DNA from: Byssovorax sp.
Lineage (GTDB): Bacteria; Myxococcota_A; Polyangia; Polyangiales; Polyangiaceae
Assembly: GCA_025362495.1 (NCBI GenBank)
Contig: JANYGI010000029.1
Span: 1-53,825, forward strand
Length of the DNA stretch: 53,825 bases
Reading direction: 5' to 3'
A program made the translations under genes and the position numbers. The notes beneath the pieces are model-generated. The model was given only the letters and a program-made list of their open reading frames with translations, made no database searches and was not told the DNA's origin. Below, piece by piece: positions 14,110 to 50,744 of the stretch. Every line of letters begins with the position of its first letter. The first letter of the stretch is position 1.

Positions 14110-14196
14110 GCCACTGCGCTTGACGAGACGGGCCTTGGCGGCGACGCGCGGGCCCGTCACGTCGGAGAGCGGGCGCGGCGCGGCCGAGCGACTGTC

Positions 14197-26492: not shown

Positions 26493-29400
26493 ATGAGCGA
26501 CCCCAATCTCGAGCGGATGATCGGCGTCGTGCAGGACACCTTGGCCATGCGGCCGAAAGACGCGCGGCAGCGCACCCGGCTGGGCGAGCTCTACCAGCAG
26601 CTCGGCAAGAAGAACGACGCGCTCATCGCGTTCCGTCGCGCCGTGAAGGACGATCCCGAGTACGCGACGGCGCGCGCGGCGCTGGGCGCCTTCCTGCTCG
26701 AGCAGGGCGAGTGGGCCGAGGCCGAGCCCTGCCTGCTCGAGGCGATCCGGCTCAAGGCGGATCTGGTGGCGCCGTACGTGACGCTCGCCGACGAGTACGC
26801 GAAGCGCGGCGAGTACAACGCGGCGTCCGAGGCTTACTCGACGGCGCTGACGCTGCGTCCCGACATGGTGTCGCTGCTGCGCGGGGCCGCCGACGTGGCC
26901 CTGAAGTCGAAGCGTCGCGAGGACGCGGCGCAGTTCCTGACGCTGGCGCGGGCGCAGACGCCGCAAGACCCGGACGTGCTGCTCAGCCTCGGGCTGACGA
27001 CGGCGGAGCTGCGTCGGTACGCCGAGGCGCGCGACGCGCTGCAAGCGTACGTCGCGCTGCGCGACAAGCCGAGCGAGGCGTGGGTGGTGCTGGCGCGGTC
27101 GTGCGAGGCGCTGGCGGACGCGCGCGGCGCGGCGATGGCCTACGCGCGCGTTGTCACGCTGCTGCCGGAGGACGCCGAGCTCCAGCTCGCGGGTGGGCGC
27201 GCGCTCGCGGCCGTGGACGATCACGACAAGGCTGTCGTCGCGCTCGAGCGCGCGTCGAACCTGCTCGCCGAGCGCGCCGAGGTCCACGCCGCGCTCGGCG
27301 CGAGCCGGCTTTCGCTGCGGCGCTTCGAGCCGGCGTCGGCGTCGTTCGCGCGGGCGGTGAAGCTCGCTCCGGCCGAGGCGCGCCACCACGCCGCGCTCGG
27401 GCACGCGAAGATCGGGCTCGGGAATTTCCAGGGCGCGACCGAGGCGCTGGAGCAGGCGGTGCGCCTCGACGGCAGCGACACGGCGGCGCTGCTGCTGCTC
27501 GCGGACGCGTACAAACGCCTCGATCGCGCGCCCGACGCGACGGGCGCGATGCGACGGGCGATCGCGGTGCGACCGGACGACGCGGCGCTGCACTTCGAGC
27601 TCGCGACCCACCTGCGCGCGCAGGGGCAGCTACCGCAGGCGCTCGCATCGTTTCGCGACGCGGCGGCGCGGCGGCCCGGCTTCTTCGAGGCGCACCTCGG
27701 CGCCGCGATCGCCGCGACGGACCTCGAGCAGCTGAAGGACGCGATCAAGGAGTACGAGGCGGCGATCGCCTCGGACGCGGGGCGGGTCGAGGCCCACCGC
27801 GGGCTCGGCGTGATTCATCGGCGGCTCGGCGATCACGCCGCGGCCGCGGTCGCCCTCGTCGCGGCGACGCGCCTCGACGCGACCGACGGCGAAGGCTTCT
27901 TCTGGCTCGCGGAGAGCCGCTTCAAGCTCGGTCAGAGCGACGACGCGATGTCGGACGTGCGGCAAGCGCTCCGGCTGCGCCCCGACGACGCGTCCGCGCA
28001 TCGCCTGCAAGGCGTGCTGCTCGCGCAGCAGAACCGGCACCCCGAGGCCATCGAGGAGCTGGAGGAGTCGCTGCGCCTCGCGCCGAAATCACCCGAAGCC
28101 CCCGAGACGCAGTTCATGCTCGGCCGGTGCCGGCAGACGGTGGGCAAGCTCGATCTCGCCGAGCAAGCCTACGCGCAGGCCGCGGCGCTGATGCCGAAAG
28201 AGGCGCGCTACCGCGAGGCGCTGGGGCGGCTGTACCTGGAGCTCGATCGCCACGAGGAGGCCGTCGAGGCGCTGGAGCGCGCCGATCACCTGAGCGCCGG
28301 CAGCGTCGAGACGCTGCGCGCGCTCGGCCTCGCGTACCTGCGCTTCGACTCACCGCGCGAGGCGCAGCGCTCGCTGGAGAAGGCGCTCTCGATCGGTCCG
28401 CCGCTCGCGCAGACGCACTTTCACCACGCGCGCGCGCTGATCGCGCTCAACCGCGGGATCGAGGCGCGGCGCGAGCTCACGGCGGCGCTCGGCCTCGATC
28501 CCGGCCTCGCCGAGGCCCATTTCGATCTCGGCGTGCTGCTGTCGAAGGCCGGCGAGCTCGAGCCCGCGGCGGAGCACCTCGAAGAGGCGACGCGGACGGC
28601 GCGGGACCCGGCCGACGCGTACGGCGAGCTCGCCCGGGTGCTGCGGGCGCGCGGCGAGATCCACGACGCGCTGCTGGCGTTCAAGCAGCGGCTGCGCGCG
28701 CGGCCGAACGACGCCGAGGCGCACTTCGGGCTGGCGGAGACGCTGGCGTTCGCGGGGCGCGACGCCGACGCGGTGACGTCGCAGCAGGCCGGCATGGCCT
28801 TCGATCCGAAGCGCACGGGGGCGTCGCGGCGGCTCGGCGAGATGCTCGCGCGGCTCGGCCGTCACGACGAGGCGCTGGAGCACCTCGAGGCCGCGACGAA
28901 AGAAGAGCCCGAGGATCCGGCGCTGTGGTCGCTCGTCGCGACCTGCCACGAGCGCGCGGAGAACCCGAAAAAGGCTGCGGCGGCGCTGCTGGAGGCCGTG
29001 ACGCGGAGCCCGGAGGACGCCTCGCTGCAGCGGCGGCTCGGCCTCGCGCTGCGCGCGGTGGGGCAGGAGCCAGAGGCGATCACGCGGCTCACGCGCGCGC
29101 TCACGCTCGATCCGGGCATGGTGGATCTCGAGGTCCCGCTGGGCGAGATGCTCCGCGCGGCCGGGCGGCGCGCGCTGAAGGAAGGCGCGCACGCCGACGC
29201 CGCGCCGAAGCTCGAGAAGGCGCGGCTCTACCAGCGCGACGACGCCGAGCTGTGCGTCGAGCTCGCGACCGCGCTGCGCGCGCTCGGCAAGTACGTGGAG
29301 GCCGTGGCGGTGACGCGGCGGGCGAGCGAGCTCGCGCCCGATCGCGCCGACGTGTTCCACCTGCTCGGCGAGCTCTGCGAGCAGACCGGGGAGCACGAGG

Positions 29401-32400
29401 CGGCGCGCGCGGCGTACGATCGCGTCGTCCGCATGACGCCCGATCGGTTCTCGGCGCAGCTCGGGCTCGGGCTCGCGTGGATGCGGCTCGGCAAGACCGC
29501 CGAGGCGATCGAGCCGCTCGCGCGCGCGGTCCGCATCGACGCCGAGCACGTGGACGCGCTCGCCGCGCTCGGCCTGGCGCGGCAGACGGAGCAGCGCTTC
29601 GCCGAGGCGCGCGACACGTTCTCGTGGCTCGCGAAGCTGCGCCCGCTCGACGTCGATCCGCTGCGCCGGCTCGCGGCGTGTCGGCTGGAGCTGGGCGAGG
29701 ACGAAGGGGAGCTGGAAGCGTTGACGACGCTCGCGCGGCTCGTGCCCGACGATCTCGACGTGCTCGAAGCGATCGCGAAATCCGAGGGGCGGCTCGGGCG
29801 CTTCGACGACAGCGTCGCCAGCTACGAGCGGCTCCTCGGCGTCGAGCCGGAGCGCCTCGACGCGCGCCGCGCCGCCGCGCTGACCTACGCGAAGCTCGAG
29901 CTCCACGACGACACGGTGCGGAGCGCGAAGCCCGTGCTGCGGGCGCGTCCGGCCGATCAGGACGTGCTGCTCGCGGTGGCGCGCGCCCACGCGCGGAAGG
30001 GGCGCTCCGCCGAGGCCGCCGAGGCCGCGGGCGAGCTGGTGCGCCTCGCGCCGAGCCACGGCGAGGCGCTGTGGGAGCTCGCCGACGCCGAGATCGCGCT
30101 CGGTCGCGACGACGGCGCGCTGGTGACGCTGGAGCGAGCCTTCGCGCTGCCGGACGCGCCGCCGCGCGTGCGCGCGAGGCTCGACGAGCTGCTCCTGCGC
30201 CGCGCCGCGGAGCTGGAGGCGAAGGGGGAGCACGACGGGGCGCTCGCCTGTCACCAGCGCTCGCGCGAGCTCGCGCCGGACGATCCCGCGCGGGCGCTCG
30301 CGGCGGCGCGGTGCCAGCACGCGCTCGGCCGCGCTCCCGAGGCCCTCGAGACGCTGCGAAAGACGTTGAAAGCGCACCCGACGCACGGCGGCTCGTGGCT
30401 CTTGCTCGGGCGGCTGTACACCGAGGCGGGCTACGCGCGCGAGGCCATCGACGCCTATCGCAAGGCCGGCGCCGCCGAGCTTGGTCCGGTCGAGCGAATC
30501 CTCGCGCTGACCGGGCTCGGCTTCGCGTGCGTGGACGGCGATCTCGGCGACGAGGCGATCGACGCGCTCACCCGCGCCGCCGCGCTCGCGCCCGACGACG
30601 CGCGCGTGAAGGCCAAGCTCGCCGATCTCCACGAGGCCGCGGGGCACCGCGAGGAGGCGATCCGCGCGCTCGTCGATCTGCGGGCGATGCGCGGCCTCGG
30701 GCCGGAGGAGCAGCGGCGGCTCGGGCTGCTGTGCGCGGCGCTCGGCAGGCACGAGGACGCGACGACGGCGCTGACGGCCGCGCTCGCGAAGTGGCCGGGC
30801 GACGCGGCGCTCCTCGAGCCGCTCGCGACGGCGCTCGAAGCCCTCGGACGCGACGCCGATGCGACGCGGTTGCTGCTGCGTCTTCGCGATGCGTCGCCCG
30901 GTCATGCGAGCGTCTCGTCGCGCCTCGGCTTCGCGCACACGCGGCTGGGACAGCCCGCCGAGGCCGCGAAAGCCTTCGAAGTCGCCCGCGCGAAGGAGGC
31001 GCCGCGCGTCGACGTGCTCGTCGCCCTCGTCGCGGCGTACACGACGCTCGCCGACGAGCCCGCGCGGCGGAGCGCCCTCGAGGCGCTGGTGCAGCTCTCG
31101 CCGGGCGATCTCGACGCCCACCGCGCGCTCGGGCGGTCGTACGACGCTGCCGGGAGGCGGGACGACGCGCTCGCCACGCTCACGCGCGCCGACGGCCTCG
31201 CGAGGAGCGCCGATCCCGAGATCCGCAAGCGGATCGCGGCGCTGCATCTCGGGCGCGCCGAGCTCCCCGGCGCCTCGGTCACCGACGAGCTGGCGAAGGC
31301 GCGAAGGTTCGGATCGGTCGAGGCTGGCCTGCTCTTCGAGGTCGCGCGCGCGTACGCGGCGCGCAAGCTCGGGCACGAGGCCGCGTCGACGGCCCGCGAG
31401 GTGCTGGCGCTCGACGCGTCGAGCGTGAACGCGGCGCTGCTCCTCGGCGGCGTGCTCACGGAAGGCGGCGACGCGCGCGGCGCGGTCGAAGCGTACGAGC
31501 TGGCGCTCCGCAACCAGGTCGACGCGGTCGAGGCCCTCGTCGGGGCGGGCAACGCGTACTTCGCGCTCGGGCGGCCCGAGGAGGGCATCGCGATGCTTCG
31601 CCGCGCGGTGACGGCAGATCCGGCGCGCCTCGACGCGCACCGGACGATGGCGGAGACGCTGCGCGCGCACGGGCGCTCGGCCGAGGCGGCGCAGAGCTAC
31701 CGCGAGGTGGTGCGGCTCTCGGACGGCAGCGCAGACGCGTGGCGCGCGCTCGGTGATCTGCTGCTCGGCCTCGGCGAGGATCGCGAGGCCGCGGCGGCGC
31801 TCGATCGATCGATCGCGCTCGAGGCCGGCGACGGGAGCGCGCTGCTCGCGCTGGCGACGGCGAACGAGCGGCTCGGCCGCTCGGACGATCACCTCGACGC
31901 GCTCGCCCGCGCTCAGAAAGCGCGGCCCGACGATCCCGAGGCCGCGGCGCGTTACGGCGTCGCGCTCGCGCAATCCGGGGACATCAACGCCGCGATCTCG
32001 CTGCTGGTGCGCGCGCGAAACCTCGATCCATCGCGCGCCGACGTCGCGCGTCGCCTGGTCGAGCTCCGCAGCGATCGCGCCGCGCGCTTCGAGGCGGAGG
32101 GCAACGCGCCCGGCGCCGAGGCCGACTTCGCGTCCGCGCTCGGTCTGTCGCCGGAGTCGGTCTCGCTCCGGCTCGGGCTCGCGCGCGCGTACCGCACGCA
32201 GGGCAAGCTTCACGAGGCGCTCTCGGTCGCCGAAGAGGCGACGAACCGCGCGCCCGAGGACGCGGCAGCGTGGCTCTTGCTCGGCGAGCTGCGCGCGCGC
32301 CTCGCCCACGAGGCCCCCGCAGCCGAGGCGTTCGCGCGGGCCGTCCGCTACGACGAGCGCTCATTCGAGGCCCGCGTCGGGCTCGCGGCGGCGCGCGTGC

Positions 32401-35400
32401 GTCTCGGCGATCCCGAGGCCGCCATCACCGAGCTCGCCCGCGCCGCAGAGCTGCGCCCCGACGCGGCCGACGTCCACGCCGAGCTCGCGCGGCTGCACGA
32501 GGCCGCCGGGCGCGCGCCCGAAGCGTTCGCCGCGTTTCGCCGCCTGGGCGCGCTGCGGCCGCTCACGAGCGACGAGTCGCGCCGGCTCGGGCTGCTCGCG
32601 CGCAAGCTCGACGACCATGCCACGTGCGCGGCCGAGCTCGCGGCGGCGCGTCCCGCTTTCGCCGACGACCGCGAGCTGTTGCTCGCCCTCGCGATCGCCG
32701 AGGTCCGCACCGGTCGCTCCGAGGCCGCGATCGATCCGCTGGAGCACCTCGTGCGGCTCTCGCCCGGCCACCCGATCGCCGGCGCGATGCTCGGCCTCGC
32801 GTACGCGCGGGCGAAGCGCTGGGCCGAGGCGAGCGAGGCCCTCGCGCGGGCGATCGCCGCGGATCCGCGCAACCCCGAGCTGCACGATCAGCACCTCGCG
32901 GCGCTCGAGCAGCTCGGTCGCACCGCCGAAAGGCTCGCGGCGCTCGAGCTCGCGGCGCGGACCTTTCCCGACGACGCGCGCCTCGCTCGGCTGCTCGGGC
33001 TCGCGCTCGCCGAGGCGGGCCGCGACGACGAGGCGATCCTGGCGCTCACCCGCGCGCGCGCCCTCGACGCGAGCGCGCCCGACGTCGCGCCGCGGCTCTC
33101 CGCGCTCCTCCTCGAGAGCGCGACGCGCGAAGCTTCAGCGGGCCGCGCCGAGCGCGCGATCGAGCGCGGCCGCGCCTCGCTCGCCGTCGCCACGGATCCC
33201 ACGGCCTCCGCGATCTTCGTCGGCGATCTCCTCCGCGCGCGCCGCGAGCACGCCGAGGCCGCCGCCCTCTACGAGCGCGCCCTCGAAGCGCGGATCGACG
33301 CCGTCGACGCGATCTTCGGCGCGGCCTCGTGCTACGTCGCGCTGGCTCGCGGGGCCGAGGCCGTGTCTCCGCTCCGCCGCGCCGCGCACGTCGATCCGTC
33401 GCGCCTCGACGTGCACCGCCTCCTCGCGTCGACCCTCGCCGCGCTCGGCCAGAAGGAGGAAGCGCTCGCGGCGTTCGCCGAGGTCCTCCGCCTCGCGCCG
33501 GACGACGCTGACGCGCTGCTCGCGCGAGGTCGCCTCGCCGCGTCGCTCGGGCGCCACGAGGACGCGCGCGCCGCGCTGGAGAAGGCGCTCGCGCTTCGCC
33601 CGGGAGACGCCGACGTCCTGTTCGAGCTGTCACGCGTCCGCGCCAAGCTCGGCCTCGGCGCGGAGAGCGTCGCGGCGGCGGAGCAGCTCGTGCGCGCGGC
33701 GCCGTCGGACGCCTCGGCGCACCAGCAGCTCGGCGCCGCGTACATCACGGCGATGGATCCCGAGAGCGCGATCGGCGCGTTCGAGCGCGCGCTGACGCTG
33801 AACGCGTCGCTCTCCGGCGTGGCCGAGCCCCTGGGCCGGCTGCGCTTCGATCGAGGCAAGCGCACGGCGGACGCCGGCGATCTCGCGCTCGCCGTGCGGG
33901 ACCTCGAGCGCGCGGCGCAGCTCCTCGCGAGCGATCCCGAGCCGAGCCTCTCGCTCGCTCGCGCGCTCGCGAAGCTCGGGCGCCCCAAGGACGCGATCGA
34001 CGCCGTGAAGGCCGCCCTGGCGCGCCGCGAGGATCACGTGGCCGCGTGGGTTTTCCTCGGAGAGACCCAGGCGGAGCTCGGCCTGCCCGAGCCCGCAGCC
34101 GCCGCGTTCGGGAGTGCGATCCGCTTCGATCGCAGCGTGTTCGCCGCGCAGCTCGGGCTCGGCCTCGCGAGCATGAAGCTCACCCGGCCGCGCGAGGCCG
34201 AGGAGGCGCTCCACCACGCGGCCGCGCTCGCGGCGAACGATCCGCCCTCCAGCAGCCGCGTCCACGCAGCGCGCGCCGAGCTCCTCGCGTCGCTCGGGCG
34301 CACGGCCGAGGCCATCGCGGCCTTGCAGCTCGTCGCCGGCGCGCGCGCGCTCGCGCCGAAAGAGCAGCGCGCGCTCGGCCAGCTCTACGCAGCCACGGGC
34401 GACGCCGCGCGGGCGGTCACCGCGCTCGAACAAGCGGCCGCCGGGGGCGCGACCGATCTCGACGTGCTCCTCGATCTGGCGTCGGCGTACCACGCGGCGG
34501 GGCGCGTCGCCGACGCCGCCGCGATGCTCGAGCGCGTCACCGCCGTCGAGCCCGGCCACGTCGCCGCGAACACGCGCCTCGGCGCCTGCTACGCGGCCCT
34601 CGGGCGCCACGACGACGCCGTCCGCGCGCTGACGATCGTGCGCCGCGCCGAGCCGGCGTCGAAGGCGACACTCGAGCAGCTCGCGAGCAGCCTCGGTCAG
34701 CTCGGGCGCAAGCTCGAGGCCGTGGATGCGCTGTCGTCGCGCTCGGCGCTCGCGCCGAACGACGCGACCTGGCTCATGCGCCTCGGCGATGGGCTCGCGG
34801 ACGTGTCTCGCTTCGACGAGGCCGCGTCCGCGTACGAGCGCGCCCGGGCCCAGCCCGACGCGCCCTCCGGCGTGGGCGAGCGGCTCGGCTCAGCGTATTT
34901 CGCCGCGGGCGAGCGCGCCGCGCGCGACGCGCACGCCGACGTCGCAGTCGATCGCTTCCAGCGCTCGATCGCGGCCGATCCGCGCAGCGAGCAGCCGCGC
35001 CTCGCGCTGGCCCGAGCCCTCGTCGAGCTCAAGCGATCCGACGAGGCCATGGCCGCCGCGCACGGCGCCCTCGTCGCCGCGCCGACGTCGCTCGAGGCGG
35101 CGCTCTTGCTCGGCGATCTCTACGCGAAGAACGGCAAGCACGCCGAGGCCGCGCAGGTCTACGAGTACGCCGCCCGGTCGAACCCGGACGCCTTCGATCT
35201 CGCGTTCGAGCTCGGCAAGACGCAGGTCATCCTCGGCCGCGCCGCCGAAGCGACGACGGCCCTGCGCCGGGCCATCGAGATCGATCCGAAGCACCTCCTC
35301 GCGAAGCGAATCCTCGCGCGCGCGCTGGAGACCGCCGGCCAGGCGGAAGACGCGATCCCGGTCTGGAAGGCGGTGCACGCGGCCGAGCCCGACGACGCCA

Positions 35401-36044
35401 TCGCCAGCCAGCGGCTCGGCCTCCTGCTCGCGAAGCAGGGCAACCACGACGAGGCGGTCGCGGCGCTCTCGAGCGCGCGACGCATCCTGCCCGACGACCT
35501 CGAGCTCGCGCTCGCGCTCGCGGCGAGCCACGAGGCGCTCGGGCGCTTCGACGAGGCCGCGCCGGTGCTCGCCTCCGCCGCGCGCGATCGGCCGCGGGAC
35601 GCCGCGCTCCAGGAGCGCTTGTCGGCCGCGCAGCAGGCCGCCGGCCACCCCGAGGAAGCGGCCGCGGCCTACCAGCGGGTCATCGACGCGGGCCGCCGCG
35701 ACGTGCCGGCGTTCGTACACCTCGGCAAGCTCCACGAGCAGGCGAAGGATCCCGAGCGCGCCCTCCGCGCATTCCAGGAGGCCTATCGCCTCGATCAGAA
35801 GAGCGTCCCGACGATTCGCCTCATCGCCGGCGCGCTCCAGGCGCTGGGTCGCGCCGCCGAGTCGATTCAGTGGCTCCAGGGCGCCTGCGGCGTCGATCCC
35901 CGCGACGCCGAGGCCCACTACGCGCTCGCCGTTCTCTATCTGAGCCTCGGCCGCCGCGCCGAGGTCAACGCCGAGTACGCGCTGCTCTGCAAGCTCGATG
36001 GCCCGCTGGCGACCAAGCTCTATTACCTGCTGGGAGGCCGCTGA
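26493..36044 (+). CDS. Giant tetratricopeptide-repeat protein (3183 residues)
   Basis: An almost uninterrupted TPR solenoid with room for roughly 90 repeats of 34 residues (pattern A-x-x-x-L-G-x-x-x-x-A-x-x-x-Y/F-x-x-A-L-x-x-x-P). No signal peptide, membrane span or enzymatic domain is visible from residue 1 to the C-terminus (ATKLYYLLGGR), so it should be a cytoplasmic scaffold or peptide-binding tube. The ATG at 26493 is the first good start. Larger tandem repeats are superimposed: an R-R/A-L-G landmark recurs at 28827, 30714, 32580 and 34368, spaced 1887, 1866 and 1788 bp. Recurring blocks such as AAWLLLGELRARL and AAWVFLGETQAEL, or AFARAVRYDERSFEA and AFGSAIRFDRSVFAA, sit in the same register. 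No partner gene is adjacent. Function unknown. Confidence 0.93.
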   Translation: MSDPNLERMIGVVQDTLAMRPKDARQRTRLGELYQQLGKKNDALIAFRRAVKDDPEYATARAALGAFLLEQGEWAEAEPCLLEAIRLKADLVAPYVTLADEYAKRGEYNAASEAYSTALTLRPDMVSLLRGAADVALKSKRREDAAQFLTLARAQTPQDPDVLLSLGLTTAELRRYAEARDALQAYVALRDKPSEAWVVLARSCEALADARGAAMAYARVVTLLPEDAELQLAGGRALAAVDDHDKAVVALERASNLLAERAEVHAALGASRLSLRRFEPASASFARAVKLAPAEARHHAALGHAKIGLGNFQGATEALEQAVRLDGSDTAALLLLADAYKRLDRAPDATGAMRRAIAVRPDDAALHFELATHLRAQGQLPQALASFRDAAARRPGFFEAHLGAAIAATDLEQLKDAIKEYEAAIASDAGRVEAHRGLGVIHRRLGDHAAAAVALVAATRLDATDGEGFFWLAESRFKLGQSDDAMSDVRQALRLRPDDASAHRLQGVLLAQQNRHPEAIEELEESLRLAPKSPEAPETQFMLGRCRQTVGKLDLAEQAYAQAAALMPKEARYREALGRLYLELDRHEEAVEALERADHLSAGSVETLRALGLAYLRFDSPREAQRSLEKALSIGPPLAQTHFHHARALIALNRGIEARRELTAALGLDPGLAEAHFDLGVLLSKAGELEPAAEHLEEATRTARDPADAYGELARVLRARGEIHDALLAFKQRLRARPNDAEAHFGLAETLAFAGRDADAVTSQQAGMAFDPKRTGASRRLGEMLARLGRHDEALEHLEAATKEEPEDPALWSLVATCHERAENPKKAAAALLEAVTRSPEDASLQRRLGLALRAVGQEPEAITRLTRALTLDPGMVDLEVPLGEMLRAAGRRALKEGAHADAAPKLEKARLYQRDDAELCVELATALRALGKYVEAVAVTRRASELAPDRADVFHLLGELCEQTGEHEAARAAYDRVVRMTPDRFSAQLGLGLAWMRLGKTAEAIEPLARAVRIDAEHVDALAALGLARQTEQRFAEARDTFSWLAKLRPLDVDPLRRLAACRLELGEDEGELEALTTLARLVPDDLDVLEAIAKSEGRLGRFDDSVASYERLLGVEPERLDARRAAALTYAKLELHDDTVRSAKPVLRARPADQDVLLAVARAHARKGRSAEAAEAAGELVRLAPSHGEALWELADAEIALGRDDGALVTLERAFALPDAPPRVRARLDELLLRRAAELEAKGEHDGALACHQRSRELAPDDPARALAAARCQHALGRAPEALETLRKTLKAHPTHGGSWLLLGRLYTEAGYAREAIDAYRKAGAAELGPVERILALTGLGFACVDGDLGDEAIDALTRAAALAPDDARVKAKLADLHEAAGHREEAIRALVDLRAMRGLGPEEQRRLGLLCAALGRHEDATTALTAALAKWPGDAALLEPLATALEALGRDADATRLLLRLRDASPGHASVSSRLGFAHTRLGQPAEAAKAFEVARAKEAPRVDVLVALVAAYTTLADEPARRSALEALVQLSPGDLDAHRALGRSYDAAGRRDDALATLTRADGLARSADPEIRKRIAALHLGRAELPGASVTDELAKARRFGSVEAGLLFEVARAYAARKLGHEAASTAREVLALDASSVNAALLLGGVLTEGGDARGAVEAYELALRNQVDAVEALVGAGNAYFALGRPEEGIAMLRRAVTADPARLDAHRTMAETLRAHGRSAEAAQSYREVVRLSDGSADAWRALGDLLLGLGEDREAAAALDRSIALEAGDGSALLALATANERLGRSDDHLDALARAQKARPDDPEAAARYGVALAQSGDINAAISLLVRARNLDPSRADVARRLVELRSDRAARFEAEGNAPGAEADFASALGLSPESVSLRLGLARAYRTQGKLHEALSVAEEATNRAPEDAAAWLLLGELRARLAHEAPAAEAFARAVRYDERSFEARVGLAAARVRLGDPEAAITELARAAELRPDAADVHAELARLHEAAGRAPEAFAAFRRLGALRPLTSDESRRLGLLARKLDDHATCAAELAAARPAFADDRELLLALAIAEVRTGRSEAAIDPLEHLVRLSPGHPIAGAMLGLAYARAKRWAEASEALARAIAADPRNPELHDQHLAALEQLGRTAERLAALELAARTFPDDARLARLLGLALAEAGRDDEAILALTRARALDASAPDVAPRLSALLLESATREASAGRAERAIERGRASLAVATDPTASAIFVGDLLRARREHAEAAALYERALEARIDAVDAIFGAASCYVALARGAEAVSPLRRAAHVDPSRLDVHRLLASTLAALGQKEEALAAFAEVLRLAPDDADALLARGRLAASLGRHEDARAALEKALALRPGDADVLFELSRVRAKLGLGAESVAAAEQLVRAAPSDASAHQQLGAAYITAMDPESAIGAFERALTLNASLSGVAEPLGRLRFDRGKRTADAGDLALAVRDLERAAQLLASDPEPSLSLARALAKLGRPKDAIDAVKAALARREDHVAAWVFLGETQAELGLPEPAAAAFGSAIRFDRSVFAAQLGLGLASMKLTRPREAEEALHHAAALAANDPPSSSRVHAARAELLASLGRTAEAIAALQLVAGARALAPKEQRALGQLYAATGDAARAVTALEQAAAGGATDLDVLLDLASAYHAAGRVADAAAMLERVTAVEPGHVAANTRLGACYAALGRHDDAVRALTIVRRAEPASKATLEQLASSLGQLGRKLEAVDALSSRSALAPNDATWLMRLGDGLADVSRFDEAASAYERARAQPDAPSGVGERLGSAYFAAGERAARDAHADVAVDRFQRSIAADPRSEQPRLALARALVELKRSDEAMAAAHGALVAAPTSLEAALLLGDLYAKNGKHAEAAQVYEYAARSNPDAFDLAFELGKTQVILGRAAEATTALRRAIEIDPKHLLAKRILARALETAGQAEDAIPVWKAVHAAEPDDAIASQRLGLLLAKQGNHDEAVAALSSARRILPDDLELALALAASHEALGRFDEAAPVLASAARDRPRDAALQERLSAAQQAAGHPEEAAAAYQRVIDAGRRDVPAFVHLGKLHEQAKDPERALRAFQEAYRLDQKSVPTIRLIAGALQALGRAAESIQWLQGACGVDPRDAEAHYALAVLYLSLGRRAEVNAEYALLCKLDGPLATKLYYLLGGR

Positions 36045-36709: not shown

Positions 36710-36985
36710 AGGTGTCCTGGAGGAGTATCAGGCTCGATCGCGCCAAGCGAGGATAGCCGCCATCGCAGGTGCGCCCGGTGATCGCCAGCGCACTCCGTGT
36801 GCCAATTGCGCGCCTTCATCGCGGTCGCGCGCGGCGCGGCGCGGCCGTGGGAGCCCGGGATGCTCGCTCGTTGTCAGCGCGGAAGATGAGTGAGCACGAA
36901 CACTGTTATTTTGTACCTCTCGTTCATTCCATCATCCGAGCGCATCGCGAGCCAGATCCGCCGACGATCCGCTACGCTCGCCTCG

Positions 36986-37957
36986 ATGGGTCAGCGCAGC
37001 ACCACGGAGACGGTCGTCACCGTTCTCCAGGCATTCTTGCAGCAGCGGAGCTGGAAGCAGGCCGATCTCGCGCGCCACGCGGACGTCACCGTCGCGGCCT
37101 TGCGCAAGCACCTCAACGAGCTCACGGCCAGCGGGTTCCCTCTCGAACGCGAGGTCGAGCATCCTCACGTGTGGTGGAGCGTCCCGAAGGGGTGGTTCCC
37201 GGGCGCGGTGCTGTTCGACTCCGAGAGCGTCCCGGAGCTGCTGCGGCAGCTGAGCCGCTTGCCCCGCAGCGCCGCGCGTGATCGCTTGATTCGCCGCATC
37301 ATCGAGGCCGCGCCGCGCCGGCCCACGATCGCCCCCGACGGGCCCACCGTGCTGACGCGGCAGCCGACCGAGAGCGAGGAGACCTATCTCCCGCTCGCCG
37401 AAGACGCGGCGAACCGGCGGATCTGCCTCGCGTTCAAGTACTTCACGATGAGCCGCGGCGCCGTCGAGTGGCGAGACGCGTCGGTGCAACGCGTGGTGAT
37501 CGGGCCCCCGGCGCGGTTCGTCGCCGTGTGCCATCGCGACGGCGCGCTCAAGTGGTTTCGCCTCGACAACGTGCTCGGCGCGCGCCTCGACGACTCCGTA
37601 CCTCACCGCGCGGCCGATCCCGCCCGGGTCGAGGCGATGCTGAAAGAGAGCGTGGACGGCTTTCATCAGGGCGACACGCTCACGTGCTCGTTCTTCGTCC
37701 GGGCCCCCGAGTCGCGCTGGGTCGAGCGGAACCTGCCTGGCTCGATGACGGCCGACGTGGTCCCGGGCGGCCTACGCTTCACGACCACCACGGCGGGAGT
37801 GCTGCGACTCGCGCGCCACGTCGTCGGACTCGGCGCCGCGGCCCGCGCCGAGACACCGGAGCTCGCGCTCCTCGTCGCGGAGCTCGCGCGCGGAGCGCTG
37901 CAGTCGGCGAGCTCGGGCCTCGACGGGGCTACGCCGTCCCCCGCCGTCGACCCTTAG
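36986..37957 (+). CDS. WYL-domain transcriptional regulator
   Basis: The 323-residue protein has an N-terminal winged helix-turn-helix (about 5-65: VVTVLQAFLQQRSWKQADLA then RHADVTVAALRKHLNELTAS). A WYL domain at about 145-205 reads RICLAFKYFTMSRG, VQRVVIGPPARFVAVCHRDG and ALKWFRLDNVLGARL, with the usual Arg/Trp-rich ligand pocket. The C-terminal domain resembles a WCX domain. WYL regulators sense nucleic acids or nucleotides in several defence and damage responses. I chose the ATG at 36986; a GTG/ATG-type start at 36890 would add 32 low-complexity residues. An AT-rich patch at 36899-36935 may hold the promoter. Confidence 0.88.
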   Translation: MGQRSTTETVVTVLQAFLQQRSWKQADLARHADVTVAALRKHLNELTASGFPLEREVEHPHVWWSVPKGWFPGAVLFDSESVPELLRQLSRLPRSAARDRLIRRIIEAAPRRPTIAPDGPTVLTRQPTESEETYLPLAEDAANRRICLAFKYFTMSRGAVEWRDASVQRVVIGPPARFVAVCHRDGALKWFRLDNVLGARLDDSVPHRAADPARVEAMLKESVDGFHQGDTLTCSFFVRAPESRWVERNLPGSMTADVVPGGLRFTTTTAGVLRLARHVVGLGAAARAETPELALLVAELARGALQSASSGLDGATPSPAVDP

Positions 37958-38043: not shown

Positions 38044-39147
38044 ATGACTCAAGCACGACAGGGAACGTTGCGCCTGGATCCCGGCGAGAGCCGCCTCATC
38101 GAGCACGTCGCCCGCGAGCTCTCGCTCTTGCCGTCAGGCGCGCAGCCAGCGGCCCTGTTCGACGCGATCCGGCCGTGCGTGCCGCTCGCCGCGGGGCTCT
38201 TCTCCATCATCCGCCCGCGCGCGCCCGACGCCTTCGTCAGCCACGCCGTCGCGCTCCCGCAAGACGTGTTCGAGAGCTGGATGGCCACCTCGCCCGAGCA
38301 GCTCGCGCGCACCCTGGCGCCGGTGATCTCGTCGGGTCCAGGCGACCTGTGGCGCGACTCGGAGACGCTCACCGGCGCGCAGCGCGAGCAGCTCGACGTC
38401 CTGCGCAAGCTCGATGACGCCGGCCTCGGCGAGGGGGCCGGCTACAAGGTCCTGGAGCGCGCGCTCCCCGGGCAAGGAGTCGAGCACTTCATGATGGCCT
38501 TGCTCATGGAACGCGGCGACGCGGTGCCGCTGCGATCTCGAGCGTTGCTCGCCGCGCTGAACCCGGCCCTCCACGCCGCGGCGCTCCGGATCGGCCTGCC
38601 GCTCGTGGCCCGCGTGCCCATGCTCGCGCAGATCGTGGACGAGCAGTCGCTCGGCTACGTCTGCCTCACGACCACGGGATCGGTGCTGGAGGCCAACCGG
38701 CGCGCGCACGCTCTCGTGGTGCGTTACCGCGACGCCGCGGGCATCACCGGGCGCGCCCGTGTCCTCGGCGACTTCGTCGCGCGCGCCCTGGAGACAGCGA
38801 GGGGGCAGCACGACTGGCTCCTCCCCGCGACCAACCCGAGCTCGATCCTCGTGGTGAATGCGCACCGGCTCGCGAAGGAGACTCACTCTCTCCCGGACGA
38901 CGTGATCCTCCTCCAGCTGAAGGAGATCCTTCTACCGGCGGCCCCTTCGGGCCCGCCGTCCCCGCTTCTCCTGCTCACCGAGCGCCAGCAAGAGATTGCC
39001 CTCCTCCTCGCGCGTACCGGCAGCTCGTACAAGCAGATCGCCGCGCAGCTCGGCATCAGCGAGTCCACCTTGCGCAAGCACGGGGAGAACATCTACCGCG
39101 CGCTCGGCATCCACTCCCGCGCCGAGCTTTCTGCGCTCCTCCGGTGA
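38044..39147 (+). CDS. LuxR-type HTH regulator upstream of the terpene gene
   Basis: The 367-residue protein has a LuxR/FixJ helix-turn-helix at about 309-367 (LTERQQEIALLLARTGSSYK, QIAAQLGISESTLRKHGENI, YRALGIHSRAELSALL). A PAS-like segment sits before it (ESLGYVCLTTTGSVLEANRR, AHALVVRY), and the first 180 residues are an unassigned sensory domain. There is no receiver Asp. The same-strand cis-prenyltransferase/terpene cyclase gene starts 204 bp after the stop, so this is the natural candidate for its activator. It follows the WYL gene at 86 bp on the same strand. Confidence 0.88.
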   Translation: MTQARQGTLRLDPGESRLIEHVARELSLLPSGAQPAALFDAIRPCVPLAAGLFSIIRPRAPDAFVSHAVALPQDVFESWMATSPEQLARTLAPVISSGPGDLWRDSETLTGAQREQLDVLRKLDDAGLGEGAGYKVLERALPGQGVEHFMMALLMERGDAVPLRSRALLAALNPALHAAALRIGLPLVARVPMLAQIVDEQSLGYVCLTTTGSVLEANRRAHALVVRYRDAAGITGRARVLGDFVARALETARGQHDWLLPATNPSSILVVNAHRLAKETHSLPDDVILLQLKEILLPAAPSGPPSPLLLLTERQQEIALLLARTGSSYKQIAAQLGISESTLRKHGENIYRALGIHSRAELSALLR

Positions 39148-39351: not shown

Positions 39352-41820
39352 ATGTGCAAACCCTCATTCGATGCCGGATCTGCCGAGCCGCGGGCCGAAG
39401 GGCCTCTTGCTCCTCACTCCCTCTTCATCCTCCCCGAGCTGGACGAGCCTCGAAGTCACGAGCTCAGCGTGCTCATCCTCGCCGACGGTAACCGCCGCTC
39501 CTCGTCCGGGGGCGGCTACGCCGGAGGCGCGCGCCGGATCGTCTCCACGGCAGAGCACCTCGCCCGGCGCCGCGACGTCGGCACCATGGTCGCTTGCATT
39601 CTCTCCCGGGACAACGTGGCCAAGCGCGGACAGGGCTTCTTCTTCGAGCTCTACCGCGAGTTCATCCAGCTCGGCGTGGAGATCGCCACGCGGGGGGCGC
39701 TCGTCGACGCCGGCGTGCACCTCGGGATCCGGGGAGATCTCGAGTCCTTGCGCCGGCGCGGCGGCCACGCCGTGCTCCTCGCGGACGCGATCGAGGCCGT
39801 GGCAGCGATGACGGACACCGTGGCCGAGCCCGCGCTGCGGCTGGTCCTCGGCGTCGGGTACGGGGCGGAAACCGCGCGCGAGCTCGACGTCGACATCATC
39901 CTTCGGACTGGCATGGAGGAGGCCGGCGTCCTGCGGTTGAGCGGGCTGCAGACGAGCGGGCGTATCGTCAACGCCGCGACTGCCACGCTCTGGCCCGACG
40001 TCGAGCCGCGCGAGGTGGACGAGCTGATAGCGCTCTGTCCGCCGCGCCGTTCGCCGCGGTTTCGCGCTGGACATGGCCTCTCCGCGATCGTCGATCTCGT
40101 CGTCGCCCTGGCGAAGTCCGACCTCGATCCGCCGGTGCGAATCACCATCCCCGCCTCGGCGCCGAGCGCGGAGATCGCGGCGGCCATGGCGCGCCTTCAC
40201 GCCGGTGCCCTGCGCGGCTGCGGGCGGATCGCCGTCGAGTACGAGGGCGCCACGTACGGGGCAGCCGCGGGGGCGCCTCGGCACCTGCTCCGCGTCGTGG
40301 GTGGTTTGAAGGCGGGGCGGTCCTCGCTCGAAGGAGAGCTGCTCTCGGTGCTGGCCCCGGGGCAGCGGCCGCCGTCGTTCACCGTGCCGGACTGGCTTGC
40401 TCTGGATCAAGCCAACGTGCACGCGTGCGGCGCCGCCGCCGAGGACCTGGTCGCCGGCGTCCGCGCCGCTCAGCGCTTCTCCGCGGCGCATCCGGCGCTC
40501 CTCGGCAGCGATCGCGCCCCCGGGGCCGTCCCCGTAGCGCCTGCGCCCGTGGTCGTTCCGCGACGCGTCGCCACGACGGAGCGAGACGAGCTCGGGGATC
40601 GCTTCGCCGAGAGAATGCTCGCCTGGGCCGGAGCTGCGGGCCTCGTGCTCCCCGGCGACGCGTGGATGACCGCCGCCCGGAACTACGCGCTCACGGCCTT
40701 CTTCATCCACGTTCGCGTCCCGACCGAGTGGGATCCCGCCGGCGCCCGCTGGGAAGAGCGCGCCGAGCTCGCCGCGCGCTACATGCTGCTCGTGGCCGCG
40801 GGGGACGAGGGGATCTTCGATCGGAGCATCGCCGACGAGACGCCGCCTTTGCGATGCGCCCGGCTCGAGCAGTCCTCACGGTTCCTCCGCGACGCGCTCG
40901 CGCCAGCGGGATCGGGATCGGGATCTAGCGCACAGCCCCCGAACATCGAGGGGAGCGCGCTCCTCGCCGCTCTCGCCGCGCAGTGGCGGGCCCTCGACGA
41001 TCAGGTCCGCGCCGCCTGCCTGCCCGCGGCGGCGGCGGCCTTTCGCGCGGGCCTCGACGATCTCTACCGCGCCAGCGTCGCCGAGCACCGCGCCGGGATC
41101 GGAGCCAGTCCGTTCTCCACGCCTCCCGGGGCTCCTGTCGACAGAGAGGCACTCTCCGCCGCGATGGAAGAGCGCTTTGCCGGGGCGCCGGCCTGCGTCG
41201 CAGCGCGAGCCCGCGAGCTCGCCCGAGACCCCGCGGAGCTCCACGGTGCGGCCGGGCGCGACGAGCTCCGCGCGCTCGTGTACCTCGCCGAGGTCTCCGG
41301 CGCGATCGGGGCAGGGTTGCTGTTCCGCGCCGCCGCTCTCTCGGCGCCTGCCGCGAGCGTCACCCGCTCGGGCCTCGCCGCGCTCGACGCCGCAGCGACG
41401 CTCCTCGACTACCACGTGCGCCTCTCCAACGACGTCTCGGGCTTCCTCGACTCGCCCGGCGGCGATCGCGACGACAAAGAGAACGCGTGCACGATCCTGG
41501 TGCCTCGATCGGCGTCGGGAGCGGCGCGCGCCGCGGCGATGGTCGCGGCGCTCGCCACGTGCAGGCGGCTAGCCGCCTGGCTCGGCGTCGAGATCGGCGG
41601 TCACCTCGCGCGGCTCGCGGCGGTGTGGCCCTGGATGGCCGTCGTCTTCCAGCGCGGGGTGTTCGTCGGGCGCCGCGTCTACGAGGTCGGCCACTACACC
41701 ACCGCGTCCCGCGCGCAGCTCCGCGCGATCTTCGCCGAGGCCGACGCGGCGCTCGGATCCGCGGCCCGACGCGCGCCCCGGCTGTCGCCGTCACGTGTCG
41801 ACGAGATTGTCAATACGTGA
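39352..41820 (+). CDS. Fusion of cis-prenyltransferase (UppS-like) and class I terpene cyclase-like domains
   Basis: An 822-residue protein. Residues about 38-220 match cis-prenyltransferases: LADGNRRS (D45-G-N-R-R49, the catalytic P-loop), LSRDN (S85, N88 of S-x-E-N), VHLGIRGDL, and VDIILRTGMEEAGVLRLSG (R185-T-G, then R195-x-S197) ending in TLWPDV (214-216). The domain is compact: the usual 50-70 residues between N-Y-G-G and R-T-G are cut to about 15. The His of G-H-K-A-G is Tyr56, and the Mg-binding Glu before L-W-P-D is not seen. A Pro/Ala linker near 380-400 leads to an all-helical C-terminal half with an acidic motif DEGIFD (485-490, like DDHFLE of geosmin synthase), RLSNDVSGFLD (N693) as a degenerate NSE motif, and DDKENACTILV. 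No signal peptide or membrane span. I infer linked making and cyclising of a cis-prenyl diphosphate. Confidence 0.75.
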   Translation: MCKPSFDAGSAEPRAEGPLAPHSLFILPELDEPRSHELSVLILADGNRRSSSGGGYAGGARRIVSTAEHLARRRDVGTMVACILSRDNVAKRGQGFFFELYREFIQLGVEIATRGALVDAGVHLGIRGDLESLRRRGGHAVLLADAIEAVAAMTDTVAEPALRLVLGVGYGAETARELDVDIILRTGMEEAGVLRLSGLQTSGRIVNAATATLWPDVEPREVDELIALCPPRRSPRFRAGHGLSAIVDLVVALAKSDLDPPVRITIPASAPSAEIAAAMARLHAGALRGCGRIAVEYEGATYGAAAGAPRHLLRVVGGLKAGRSSLEGELLSVLAPGQRPPSFTVPDWLALDQANVHACGAAAEDLVAGVRAAQRFSAAHPALLGSDRAPGAVPVAPAPVVVPRRVATTERDELGDRFAERMLAWAGAAGLVLPGDAWMTAARNYALTAFFIHVRVPTEWDPAGARWEERAELAARYMLLVAAGDEGIFDRSIADETPPLRCARLEQSSRFLRDALAPAGSGSGSSAQPPNIEGSALLAALAAQWRALDDQVRAACLPAAAAAFRAGLDDLYRASVAEHRAGIGASPFSTPPGAPVDREALSAAMEERFAGAPACVAARARELARDPAELHGAAGRDELRALVYLAEVSGAIGAGLLFRAAALSAPAASVTRSGLAALDAAATLLDYHVRLSNDVSGFLDSPGGDRDDKENACTILVPRSASGAARAAAMVAALATCRRLAAWLGVEIGGHLARLAAVWPWMAVVFQRGVFVGRRVYEVGHYTTASRAQLRAIFAEADAALGSAARRAPRLSPSRVDEIVNT

Positions 41821-41870: not shown

Positions 41871-42992
41871 ATGAATCATCGAGTCGAGCTGGTCAGCCTC
41901 ACGATCCAGGACGTGGCGGCCCTCGACGGGCCGATCGAGCTCGGGCCATTCTCCCGCGGCGTCAACGTGATCCGCGGGCGCCGCGAGGGCGCGAGCGCCT
42001 CGGTCGTCCTGGCGCTGCGCGCGGTGGTGTTCGAGCGTCACGACGCCCATCACGACGGGATCAAGGCCTTGCGCGCGAAGGCGACGCGCGGCGCCCCCGA
42101 GATCGGCGTCGAGCTGTCCATCGACGGAGAGCGGGTGAGCGTCCGCAAGCGCTTCCTCGACCGGCCCTTCGCCGAGGTGCGCCTCCGCGACGAAGCGGGC
42201 GTCGTCACCGGCGGCGCCGCCGAGGATCTGCTGCTCGATCGCCTCCGCGGCGATGCCTCGCGCGAGGCCGGGCGCGCGCAGAACGATGCCGGGAGCTCGA
42301 GCGCGGCCGGATCGGCGCTCGATCCGACGGCGCAGCACGCGGCGGTGATCGGGCAGCTCGCCGCGATGGAGGCGCAGCTCCCCGGGCTCGACGCCGTGCG
42401 ACGCGCCGCGGTCACCGCGGAGGCCCTGGCCCACGCGCGCGAGATCCTGGCCGACGCGACCGAGCTCGACCTGGCGAACGCCGAGGCGGAGCTGGCGGCC
42501 GCGCACCGCGCGATCGCGGAGAGCTGCGCATCGAGCCCGGCGCCGCGCGGGGGGCCGCTCTGGGCGCGTCACGCGTCGGCGAAGGCCGCGCTCGTTCCCG
42601 CGCACCGACGCGCACGCGACGCCGCGACGGCGCTCGACGGGGCGCCTCTGCGGGAGCTTCAGGGCGAGACGCTGCGCGCGGGCGGCGCCATCGCCGCTTG
42701 CATGCGGCGCGCTGCCGAGCTCCGCGCGCGCGCGCAGGTGCTCGCGGCCTGGAGCGTCGACGGTCGCGGCTCGTTGCCGCTCGTCTTCGAAGATCCGACG
42801 CCGTGGCCGGAGCACGCCCGGTGGCGATCGATCGTGCAAGCCCTGCGTGAAGCGTCGAGCGAGCGCCAGATCCTCGTGCTCACCGCTCACCCTTCACGCT
42901 TCAACCGCCTCCAGGTCGACTGCGCGGTGGACCTCGATCAAGCCCGCGACGAGGGACCGCGCGCGTCCCGGCTCGACACGCTCGCGGGCTGA
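41871..42992 (+). CDS. Rad50/YhaN-like ATPase relative with a lost Walker A Lys
   Basis: A 373-residue protein. The N-terminus VELVSLTIQDVAALDGPIEL then GPFSRGVNVIRGRREGAS has the beta strands and loop position of SMC/Rad50/YhaN ATPases. But the P-loop G-x4-G-K-S/T reads G36-RREG-A-S-A, so the Lys is Ser and a key Gly is Ala. The C-terminus SLPLVFEDPTPWPEHARWRS then QILVLTAHPSRF matches the Walker B / D-loop / H-loop order of YhaN-type proteins, with E307-D308. Only a short coiled-coil-like stretch lies between (about 150-290), far shorter than in real SMC proteins. ATP hydrolysis looks unlikely; it may bind a partner or DNA. It starts 50 bp after the terpene gene on the same strand. Confidence 0.65.
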   Translation: MNHRVELVSLTIQDVAALDGPIELGPFSRGVNVIRGRREGASASVVLALRAVVFERHDAHHDGIKALRAKATRGAPEIGVELSIDGERVSVRKRFLDRPFAEVRLRDEAGVVTGGAAEDLLLDRLRGDASREAGRAQNDAGSSSAAGSALDPTAQHAAVIGQLAAMEAQLPGLDAVRRAAVTAEALAHAREILADATELDLANAEAELAAAHRAIAESCASSPAPRGGPLWARHASAKAALVPAHRRARDAATALDGAPLRELQGETLRAGGAIAACMRRAAELRARAQVLAAWSVDGRGSLPLVFEDPTPWPEHARWRSIVQALREASSERQILVLTAHPSRFNRLQVDCAVDLDQARDEGPRASRLDTLAG

Positions 42993-49412: not shown

Positions 49413-50744
49413 GTGCTCAATCCCTTCAACCGATCTCCTGGGCTGCGCGACGGGATACCGATTCTCCCCGGGGCGTTCCCGCTGATTGGCCACATCCCCA
49501 CGGTGTACCGGAAGCTCCCCGAGACGATCCGCCGCGCCCGGGCCGAGTATGGTGATCTGGTCTGGGTCACCACGGGCTTCGGCTGGCTGCTCTACTGCAC
49601 TGGACCCGGGGCCATAGACCTCTTTCGCAATCGGTCCTTCGACAGCAGCCACCTCGAGACGGTCTATCCCACCGTCGGCGGCGGGACCATGCTGGCGCGC
49701 GACGGCGCGGCGCACCGCCACATGCGCGGCGCGCTCAACCAGCCGTTCTTGCCTCGTGGGCTCACCGCGAGCGGCGTGGGCGCGACCGTCGCGACGGTGC
49801 TCGGCGAGGTCGCCGCGCGCTGGGTCGGGAAGGGGAGCGCGCAGGTGCTCCCCGAAGCGCAAGAGGCCACGCTCGACATCATCTTTCGACTCCTCGGCAT
49901 CTCGGCGTCCGAGCTCGCCGCCTGGCGGAAGCAGTACCGGACACTGCTCCTCGCCAACCTGGGCATCACCGTGCGATTCCCGGGCTCGCCGGCGGTCCGC
50001 GCCGAGAAGGCCAAGGCCTGGATCGACGCGCGGATGACCGCGATGGTGGCCGACGCGCGGCGTGATCCCGCGGCGGCGGGCTTCCTCGGCGCCCTGGTGG
50101 CCGCGCAGGACGACGACGGCAAAGCCCTCTCCGACGACGCGATCGTCGCCAACCTGCGCCTCATCGTCCTCGGCGGCCACGACACGATCTCGGCGATGAT
50201 GGCCTGGATGACGGTCACTCTCGCCCACCAGCCCGCGCTCTGGGACGCGCTCGTGACAGAGGCAGGTGACGCGAAACAGATCCCGACGACGCCGGAGCAA
50301 GTGAAGGCGTTTCCCTTCGCCGAGGCCCTGTTCCGCGAGACGGTGCGGATGCATCCGCCGTTCTCCAGCCTCACGCGCGTCGCCGCCGAGGACACCGAGC
50401 TCCAGGGCCACAAGATCGCCCGCGGCACGATGGTCGCCATCGACATCTGGGGCACCTCGCACGACGCGGCGACGTTCCCGGATCCCGACACGTTCCTGCC
50501 CTCGCGCTGGCTCGGGCGAAGCGGCGCGCCGTCGGCGATCGAGATCGCGCAGTTCGGCGCGGGCCCGCATTTTTGCCTTGGATATCACCTGGCGTGGCTC
50601 GAAGCGGTGGCGTTCGCCGTGGCGCTCGCGCGCGAGGGCAAGCGCCTCGGCAAGCGACCCAGGCTGCGGAGCAAGGAGTTCCCGGCGTCGACGTTCCTGC
50701 CCACGGAGCACCCGCCGGGCAGCACCAGGGTCGATTTCGTGTAA
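49413..50744 (+). CDS. Cytochrome P450
   Basis: The 443-residue soluble bacterial P450 has its I-helix oxygen-binding motif at LGGHDTIS (about 254, form G-G-x-D-T), K-helix E-x-x-R as ETVR at 309-312, and the heme pocket FGAGPHFCLG (381-390, Cys388 as thiolate ligand). The N-terminal PGLRDGIPILPGAFPLIGHI with the Pro-rich turn is usual for the class. All key residues are intact. A GTG at 49413 is the start, 12 bp after the FadL-like gene. No ferredoxin or reductase gene is adjacent, so the electron partner must come from elsewhere. It is 7.6 kb from the terpene gene; a link is possible but unsupported. Confidence 0.95.
   Translation: MLNPFNRSPGLRDGIPILPGAFPLIGHIPTVYRKLPETIRRARAEYGDLVWVTTGFGWLLYCTGPGAIDLFRNRSFDSSHLETVYPTVGGGTMLARDGAAHRHMRGALNQPFLPRGLTASGVGATVATVLGEVAARWVGKGSAQVLPEAQEATLDIIFRLLGISASELAAWRKQYRTLLLANLGITVRFPGSPAVRAEKAKAWIDARMTAMVADARRDPAAAGFLGALVAAQDDDGKALSDDAIVANLRLIVLGGHDTISAMMAWMTVTLAHQPALWDALVTEAGDAKQIPTTPEQVKAFPFAEALFRETVRMHPPFSSLTRVAAEDTELQGHKIARGTMVAIDIWGTSHDAATFPDPDTFLPSRWLGRSGAPSAIEIAQFGAGPHFCLGYHLAWLEAVAFAVALAREGKRLGKRPRLRSKEFPASTFLPTEHPPGSTRVDFV

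Follow-up and report, generated by a model that had tools for sequence, protein, structure and literature searches.

The window analyzed here is a whole contig of 53,825 bases from the 10.8-Mb genome of Byssovorax sp. (G000), and the element in question is a single gene on its forward strand, the product of which we refer to as the window fusion. The open reading frame (ORF) is uninterrupted and its base composition is like that of a coding gene. Three conserved regions are present in the predicted protein: N1 (residues ∼38-244), N2 and C. Their positions, together with those of the recognizable motifs and of two neighboring genes, are given in Table 1. Judged by profile comparison, the N-terminal half is descended from cis-prenyltransferases and the C-terminal half is most like class I terpene synthases, as the first-pass annotation, made from the DNA letters alone, had proposed for this single protein, and the same fusion is encoded in eight genomes.

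Table 1. Features of the fusion gene and of the adjoining genes upstream (window positions)
Feature	Position	Strand	Description
Fusion gene	39352..41820	+	822 amino acids plus stop; cis-prenyltransferase-like, middle domain, class I terpene-synthase-like
N1 domain	39463..40083	+	residues 38-244; compact UppS homologue
N2 domain	40084..40521	+	residues 245-390; conserved in 9/9 including the split protein; invariant APGQ
Linker	40522..40581	+	residues 391-410; variable, low model confidence
C domain	40582..41751	+	residues 411-800; like class I terpene synthases, modeled as helical
DGNRR	39484..39498	+	residues 45-49; matches the diphosphate-binding loop and catalytic Asp of UppS; 9/9 keep the Asp, the Gly and the final Arg
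GYAGG	39514..39528	+	GHKAG equivalent; Tyr56 at the His43 place, Tyr in 9/9
SRDN	39604..39615	+	Ser85 corresponds to UppS Ser71 and Asn88 to Asn74, 9/9
RTG...RLSGL	39904..39948	+	RTG at residues 185-187; Arg185 corresponds to UppS Arg194 and Arg195 to Arg200, 9/9
LWPD	39988..39999	+	residues 213-216; the preceding UppS Mg-binding Glu is missing in 9/9
DEGIFD	40804..40821	+	residues 485-490; degenerate Asp-rich motif, on DDxxx; first and last Asp in 8/8
Glu-Leu-Arg	41263..41271	+	residues 638-640; invariant in 8/8; candidate pyrophosphate-sensor Arg
NDVSGF...GGDRD	41428..41472	+	degenerate NSE region; Asn693-Asp694 in 8/8
GHYTT	41689..41703	+	near the RY-pair place; His-Tyr in 8/8
LuxR-type (GerE) regulator	38044..39147	+	367 amino acids; a homologue adjoins the fusion in 7/8 loci
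Regulator-like gene	36890..37957	+	weak helix-turn-helix match below the Pfam cut-off; 75% identical to the M. rosea gene in the same place

Single-sequence searches with the window fusion recovered neither family. There was no Pfam match to any family, one weak and unrelated NCBIfam match to the whole protein (E 0.078; 0.014 and 0.17 with the N-half alone), and the best row of a Protein Data Bank (PDB) search was unrelated (E 0.019). With the C profile, the fusion was found in eight of the 108 genomes of the family (G000, G013, G031, G038, G055, G415, G450, and G451), which include Minicystis rosea DSM 24000 (G038), Polyangium sp. 15x6 (G415), and Polyangium fumosum DSM 14668 (G450). The N profile matched the same eight and a ninth, G056, where the match is an ordinary UppS (E 2.0e-4). 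In a phylum sample of 377 genomes, where the N-profile scan scored four candidates per genome and may miss distant relatives, confirmed matches came from four genomes, all within this family. Weak and short matches in G253 and G207 (E 4e-5 and 8e-5) were absent with the N profile and were dropped; the one in G207 falls in the C-half, outside the coverage of that profile. Weak N-profile matches over the RTG-LWPD stretch in G160, G202, and G238 are not among the confirmed ones. A contig scan with two peptide patterns returned four loci, a contig scan with the window fusion sequence returned 33 stretches, none of them a relative, and a plasmid search with a free N-half protein of M. rosea, described below, gave no match. 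Among six Polyangium pairs, the ratio of nonsynonymous to synonymous substitution rates (dN/dS) was 0.18-0.26 for N1, 0.34-0.53 for N2, and 0.17-0.33 for C, and thus all three regions are under purifying selection. The G451 fusion (L030 7663-10062) is divergent: its DGNxR motif reads DGSGR, its Asp motif is shorter by one residue, and its LuxR gene is divergently placed.

For the N-half, nine N1 sequences (the eight fusions and the free M. rosea protein) were compared by hhalign with 12 ordinary UppS proteins of the same bacterial family, i.e., 13 PF01255 matches minus L055, which is the G031 fusion itself. The two profiles aligned with a Prob of 98.1 and a P of 8.4e-14; the score of 93.5 compares with a best of 61.4 among 400 shuffled UppS profiles (200 column and 200 block shuffles). 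The window N1 sequence alone also matched UppS (P 9.3e-9), and N1 gave P values of 0.29 or worse against terpene synthases, trans-prenyltransferases, and squalene synthases. UppS structures were found when the N profile was searched against the PDB (best 2d2r, E 3.4e-4), and the same search with the free M. rosea N-half sequence gave an unrelated best row (E 1.8). The Pfam model PF01255, with a cut-off of 27 bits, was matched at E up to 1 by three of the eight fusions, and scores of 27.8, 26.1, and 16.9 bits were obtained for the G031 fusion, the free M. rosea N-half, and the M. rosea fusion, respectively. A housekeeping UppS role for the fusion was rejected, because two ordinary UppS genes are present elsewhere in the window genome.

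The cis-prenyltransferase motifs had been placed by the first-pass annotation in the first 220 residues. The motifs stand, and that extent is too short: a further conserved domain, N2, continues to residue ∼390. N2 (∼146 residues, with an invariant APGQ and Cys) accompanies N1 in all nine sequences. The window copy of N2 had no Pfam or NCBIfam match, and its profile had no match in the PDB (best E 2). The reading that N2 is an additional prenyltransferase or cyclase domain was tried and rejected, with P values of 0.31 or worse against four families.

Active-site residues were counted in a joint alignment of the nine N1 sequences with UppS, using residue numbers and roles that we take to be those of E. 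coli UppS (the role of the RXG motif excepted). The equivalents of Asp26, Gly27, Arg30, Gly46, Ser71, Asn74, Arg194, Thr195, Gly196, and Arg200 are present in all nine. Conservation is less complete for Asn28 (eight of nine, with Ser in one), Glu198 (eight), Ser202 (five), and Arg39 (one), and an Arg lies one position after the place of Arg77 in every sequence. The losses are equally uniform. Trp31 is lost throughout, Trp75 is replaced by Val or Ile, and the place of His43 is occupied by Tyr. The Mg-binding Glu213 is found in none of the nine, compared with 12 of the 12 UppS proteins, and the same counts hold for the C-terminal RXG in the aligned columns, at an end where the alignment is less certain. 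The distance from DGN to RTG is 138-141 residues in the fusion family and 168-169 in UppS, i.e., 27-31 residues shorter. The motifs named in the first-pass annotation (DGNRR, S..N, RTG...R, LWPD, DEGIFD, and a degenerate NSE) lie where it had put them, and the losses that it saw in the window protein, of the GHKAG His and the Mg-binding Glu, are real in every relative.

On this residue evidence, the N-half has retained most of its allylic site and has an altered acceptor side. Ordinary elongation with isopentenyl diphosphate (IPP) is unlikely, since Glu213 and the aligned RXG are gone and 27-31 residues are missing. It has been suggested that absence of the RXG Arg lets a cis-prenyltransferase use acceptors without a diphosphate (PMC8131916). 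Compared with UppS, the fusions are alike in profile, in motif order, and in the Asp26, Gly27, Arg30, Ser71, Asn74, Arg194-Thr-Gly, and Arg200 equivalents; they differ in the Glu213, RXG, His43, and Trp75 changes, in the presence of N2, and in the fused C-half.

For the C-half, eight C-domain sequences were compared by hhalign with 23 class I terpene synthase domains (24 PF19086 matches minus L075, which is below the cut-off; several are two domains of one protein). The match was significant (P 6.1e-5), and its score of 43.1 was reached by none of 400 shuffled profiles, the best of which scored 26.2. Removing the window row gave a P of 3.3e-6, and removing Polyangium a P of 1.8e-5. The accepted distant kinship of terpene synthases with trans-prenyltransferases, used as a yardstick, gave a P of 1.6e-4. 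The C-half profile matched less well to trans-prenyltransferases (P 0.014; the 24 of 31 PF00348 matches with loci) and to squalene synthases (P 0.098; 13 PF00494 matches minus L121, which is partial, leaving 12). An identity as either of these is weaker by profile, and the fold comparison below brings no separation. When the 23 synthase domains were compared singly with the C profile, the best was the synthase of the M. rosea split locus (uncorrected P 0.0035), which is a hint. The Pfam terpene synthase models had no match in any of the eight fusions at E up to 1. Independently of the fusion, the window genome encodes one further PF19086 terpene synthase, with the motif NDILSLGKD (C66, 11644-12168).

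The alignment with the bacterial class I synthases (PF19086) can be followed motif by motif: GDEGIFD coincides with the Asp-rich motif and NDVSGF with NSE, and GHYTT lies close to the end where the RY pair is expected. The consensus DDxx(x)D/E is departed from at its second Asp, which is Glu, Tyr, Asn, or Val, with the first and last Asp retained throughout. The NSE triad is incomplete: Asn-Asp is invariant, there is no Glu at the usual place, and an acidic G-x-D-x-D stretch follows. An invariant His-Tyr lies close to the place of the RY pair.

One full-length AlphaFold2 model was made from five alignment rows, and the fold of the C-half is taken from it. The mean predicted local distance difference test (pLDDT) score is 58.5 and the predicted template modeling (pTM) score is 0.49, residues 61-170 and 711-770 being the best. 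With modest confidence, residues 411-821 are modeled as helices and loops only, consistent with the all-helical domain expected by the first-pass annotation. In a Foldseek search, Rv3378c (tuberculosinol/tuberculosinyladenosine synthase) came first (E 8.0e-4), in effect tied with (Z,Z)-farnesyl diphosphate (FPP) synthase (E 9.4e-4), and the list of structural matches includes isosesquilavandulyl and lavandulyl diphosphate synthases. By VIA-align, the N-half superposed on UppS 7jlm over residues 27-190 (Z 13.2, root-mean-square deviation (rmsd) 4.7, 150 aligned). The C-half aligned with (E)-biformene synthase LrdC over residues ∼556-779 (Z 11.6, rmsd 3.2, 163 aligned) and with octaprenyl diphosphate synthase, a trans-prenyltransferase (Z 11.7, rmsd 3.5, 163 aligned); for helical bundles, the tool warns that a Z under about 13 can reflect a common arrangement. 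The model thus fits the two expected folds, one for each half, and alone it does not separate a synthase from a trans-prenyltransferase.

A natural split version is present in M. rosea. In addition to its fusion, this strain encodes a free 408-residue N1-N2 protein (L011:8323-9546 plus stop), the gene for which overlaps by four bases (ATGA) a gene for a 357-residue terpene synthase (L011:9546-10619). The synthase is a canonical class I enzyme (PF19086, E 3.6e-34). Among the NCBIfam models it comes closest to selina-4(15),7(11)-diene synthase, to which it is not assigned (253 bits, cut-off 450). A cytochrome P450 gene comes next in the split locus (L011 8323-12014), nearest to pentalenene oxygenase (457 bits, cut-off 800). 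Further on from the split locus, at 12879-14375, lies a flavin monooxygenase gene. One tree grouped the free N-half with the fusions of the window and of M. rosea (support 0.76), and a second tree gave it a different position (0.45); it may thus be what is left of a fusion after loss of the C-half.

Several known systems resemble parts of this architecture. Rv3378c and kolavelool synthase have class II cyclases as partners, whereas the partner of the fusion N-half is class I-like and is fused. The Tyr at the His43 place may match Tyr51 of Rv3378c, as PDB titles suggest. Both enzymes represent the cis-prenyltransferase family used as terpene synthases (PMC8131916). The head-to-middle enzymes (lavandulyl, cyclolavandulyl, and isosesquilavandulyl) are structural matches to the N-half; the sequence match of the N profile to cyclolavandulyl synthase has an E of 1.8. 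To our knowledge, the head-to-middle cis-prenyltransferases are not fused. These enzymes, like the reading considered below for the N-half, are concerned with irregular terpenoids (PMC7839719).

The M. rosea split locus resembles the sorangiadenosine set (sora7 P450, sora8 transferase, sora9 terpene cyclase), a likeness drawn from the gene descriptions. In that myxobacterial cluster, genes for a P450, a 518-residue transferase (Sora8), and a terpene cyclase are numbered in a row and were proposed for a sesquiterpene-nucleoside, and no fusion is mentioned for the sora set in the accessible text of the report (PMC7321100). A search for a locus of sorangiadenosine type in the phylum gave nearest synthases in three of 377 genomes (G400, G288, and G409), with no N-half-like neighbor by the N profile. 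Across 359 genomes of the phylum, PF19086 matched 37 times, in 17 genomes, and a separate count over the 21 genomes of the family of G373 gave one match; for two of the 37, a larger neighborhood was examined.

Like the window fusion, the fungal prenyltransferase-terpene synthases, e.g., fusicoccadiene synthase, hold a prenyltransferase and a class I cyclase in one chain. The fungal prenyltransferase is of the trans type and C-terminal, with the cyclase N-terminal (PMC8307374), whereas in the bacterial fusion a cis-type half comes first. Chimeric class I prenyltransferase-cyclases are called unique to fungi in the accessible part of that source (PMC8307374). In the literature searched, which covered few subscription papers, we found no description of a fusion between a cis-prenyltransferase and a class I cyclase, in agreement with the first-pass annotation, which knew of none.

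Taken as a whole, the protein may be a two-domain terpenoid enzyme in which a repurposed cis-prenyltransferase with an altered acceptor works with a class I-type cyclase, an assignment that we find nearly, if not quite, probable. The N-half (N1 with N2) would still bind an allylic diphosphate, prenyl or terpenyl, and ionize it by means of Asp45-Gly-Asn-x-Arg and the adjacent Ser85 and Asn88. The acceptor site would be rebuilt, since the Mg-binding Glu and the aligned RXG are gone and His43 is now Tyr, and the N-half would add no IPP units. Our first choice, tentatively held, is that the N-half, in partnership with the fused class I-type cyclase, passes the prenyl or terpenyl group to an acceptor for which a diphosphate is not required. 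Possible acceptors would be water, alcohols, and bases such as nucleosides, and the product would be a terpene alcohol or a terpene conjugate. Two terpene synthases of the cis-prenyltransferase family, one of them Rv3378c, hydrolyze allylic diphosphates and a third enzyme O-prenylates (PMC8131916). A cyclase that kept or recaptured the diphosphate would let the N-half act second, an order that was proposed for the sorangiadenosine pathway (PMC7321100). Put more broadly, we think on balance that the rebuilt cis-prenyltransferase and middle domain use an unusual acceptor or make an irregular prenyl diphosphate and, partnered with the fused class I cyclase, give a terpene skeleton or conjugate new for any fused synthase. 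The first-pass annotation had suggested that the transferase half could supply its own cyclase with a prenyl diphosphate that is branched or Z-configured; its alternative, a repurposed transferase half, fits the residue pattern at least as well.

A number of observations weigh against this assignment. On the N-terminal side, the window N1 has R-A-G three columns past the aligned RXG (one of nine sequences), the retained equivalents of Ser71, Asn74, Arg194, and Arg200 would also fit coupling to a second diphosphate, and residues 46-57 and 185-239 of the model, which hold active-site motifs, have a pLDDT <50 from the five-row input. After a class I cyclase has acted, there is normally no diphosphate left for a transferase to use. 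The separate searches of the two halves that the first-pass annotation had called for came out unequally: the N-half was significant even for the window sequence alone, and the C-half was significant as a family but not for the window sequence alone (P 0.09). The PDB profile search with the C-half gave one unrelated row (E 0.057), its model fits octaprenyl diphosphate synthase as well, and both of its metal motifs are degenerate in all eight fusions. The split locus is not a fully independent case, since its free N-half may derive from a fusion.

It is possible, if doubtful, that the N-half instead couples two prenyl diphosphates irregularly, head-to-middle or into a Z short chain, and feeds the product to the fused class I cyclase. 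Such coupling comes into consideration because the Ser71, Asn74, Arg194, and Arg200 equivalents are kept, as are Thr195 and Gly196, in all nine sequences. Head-to-middle coupling is known in enzymes of the cis-prenyltransferase fold, one of which also cyclizes (PMC7839719), isosesquilavandulyl and lavandulyl diphosphate synthases are among the structural matches, and fungi have prenyltransferases fused to cyclases (PMC8307374 and PMC8190136). The uniform loss of Glu213 and the aligned RXG argues the other way, as does the lack of His78 of lavandulyl diphosphate synthase, the place of which (Asn28) holds Asn in eight N1 sequences and Ser in one. The partner in the split copy is, moreover, a canonical synthase nearest, below cut-off, to a selinadiene synthase model. 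Selinadiene-type synthases use ordinary FPP.

An N-half without enzymatic activity, acting as a substrate-binding, dimerizing, or regulatory domain for the cyclase half, is improbable. In its favor are the loss of several residues of the catalytic site, the shortening of the DGN-RTG stretch by 27-31 residues relative to UppS, and the noncatalytic subunit of cis-prenyltransferase type known in humans, NgBR (PMC7573591). Against it, the catalytic Asp, Gly, and Arg equivalents are kept in nine of nine, and in the six Polyangium pairs N1 ranks at or near the bottom of the domains in dN/dS. We consider it more improbable still that the C-half is inactive and that the N-half alone makes or hydrolyzes the product. 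With the Asp-rich and NSE motifs both degenerate, the cyclase may be altered or inactive; against inactivity, none of the eight fusions departs from Arg640, Asn-Asp, His-Tyr, or the Asp at either end of the Asp-rich motif, the dN/dS of the C domain is 0.17-0.33, and the split copy is paired with a synthase having fuller motifs. A chance ORF, an assembly error, or misjoined genes, which the missing Pfam match to either family might have suggested, can be set aside, because the fusion recurs in seven other genomes, where it is 35-56% identical to the window copy, and because the window ORF has the base composition of a coding gene.

A conserved bacterial fusion of cis-prenyltransferase and cyclase would be a second, independent solution beside the fungal chimeras, and the acceptor-site changes suggest chemistry other than chain elongation. 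The named strains M. rosea DSM 24000, with its natural split version, and P. fumosum DSM 14668 allow direct testing. Standard genome mining may miss these loci, because the window fusion has no Pfam match and no fusion matches a Pfam terpene synthase model.

Upstream of the fusion gene lies the LuxR-type regulator, which has counterparts beside the fusion so that seven of the eight loci carry one. The other six that adjoin a fusion are 42-52% identical to that of the window, and none was found at the G031 fusion locus. This neighbor suggests a regulated, specialized metabolism. No P450 gene adjoins the window fusion; the nearest identified, a cytochrome P450 gene (PF00067, E 3.1e-40) at 49413-50744, is 7.6 kb downstream. 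A 373-residue ORF (41871-42992) begins 50 bases 3′ of the fusion and had no NCBIfam match up to E 1 and no Pfam match up to E 0.001. Elsewhere in the window are a 3193-residue ORF at 26463-36044 that by eye resembles tetratricopeptide repeats, a gene on the reverse strand at 23536-24909 for a cytochrome c-like protein (a RoxA-like match, E 8.3e-9, and a MauG-type match), and a gene at 6721-7896 for a protein with a helix-turn-helix and an IrrE-like peptidase (Peptidase_M78).

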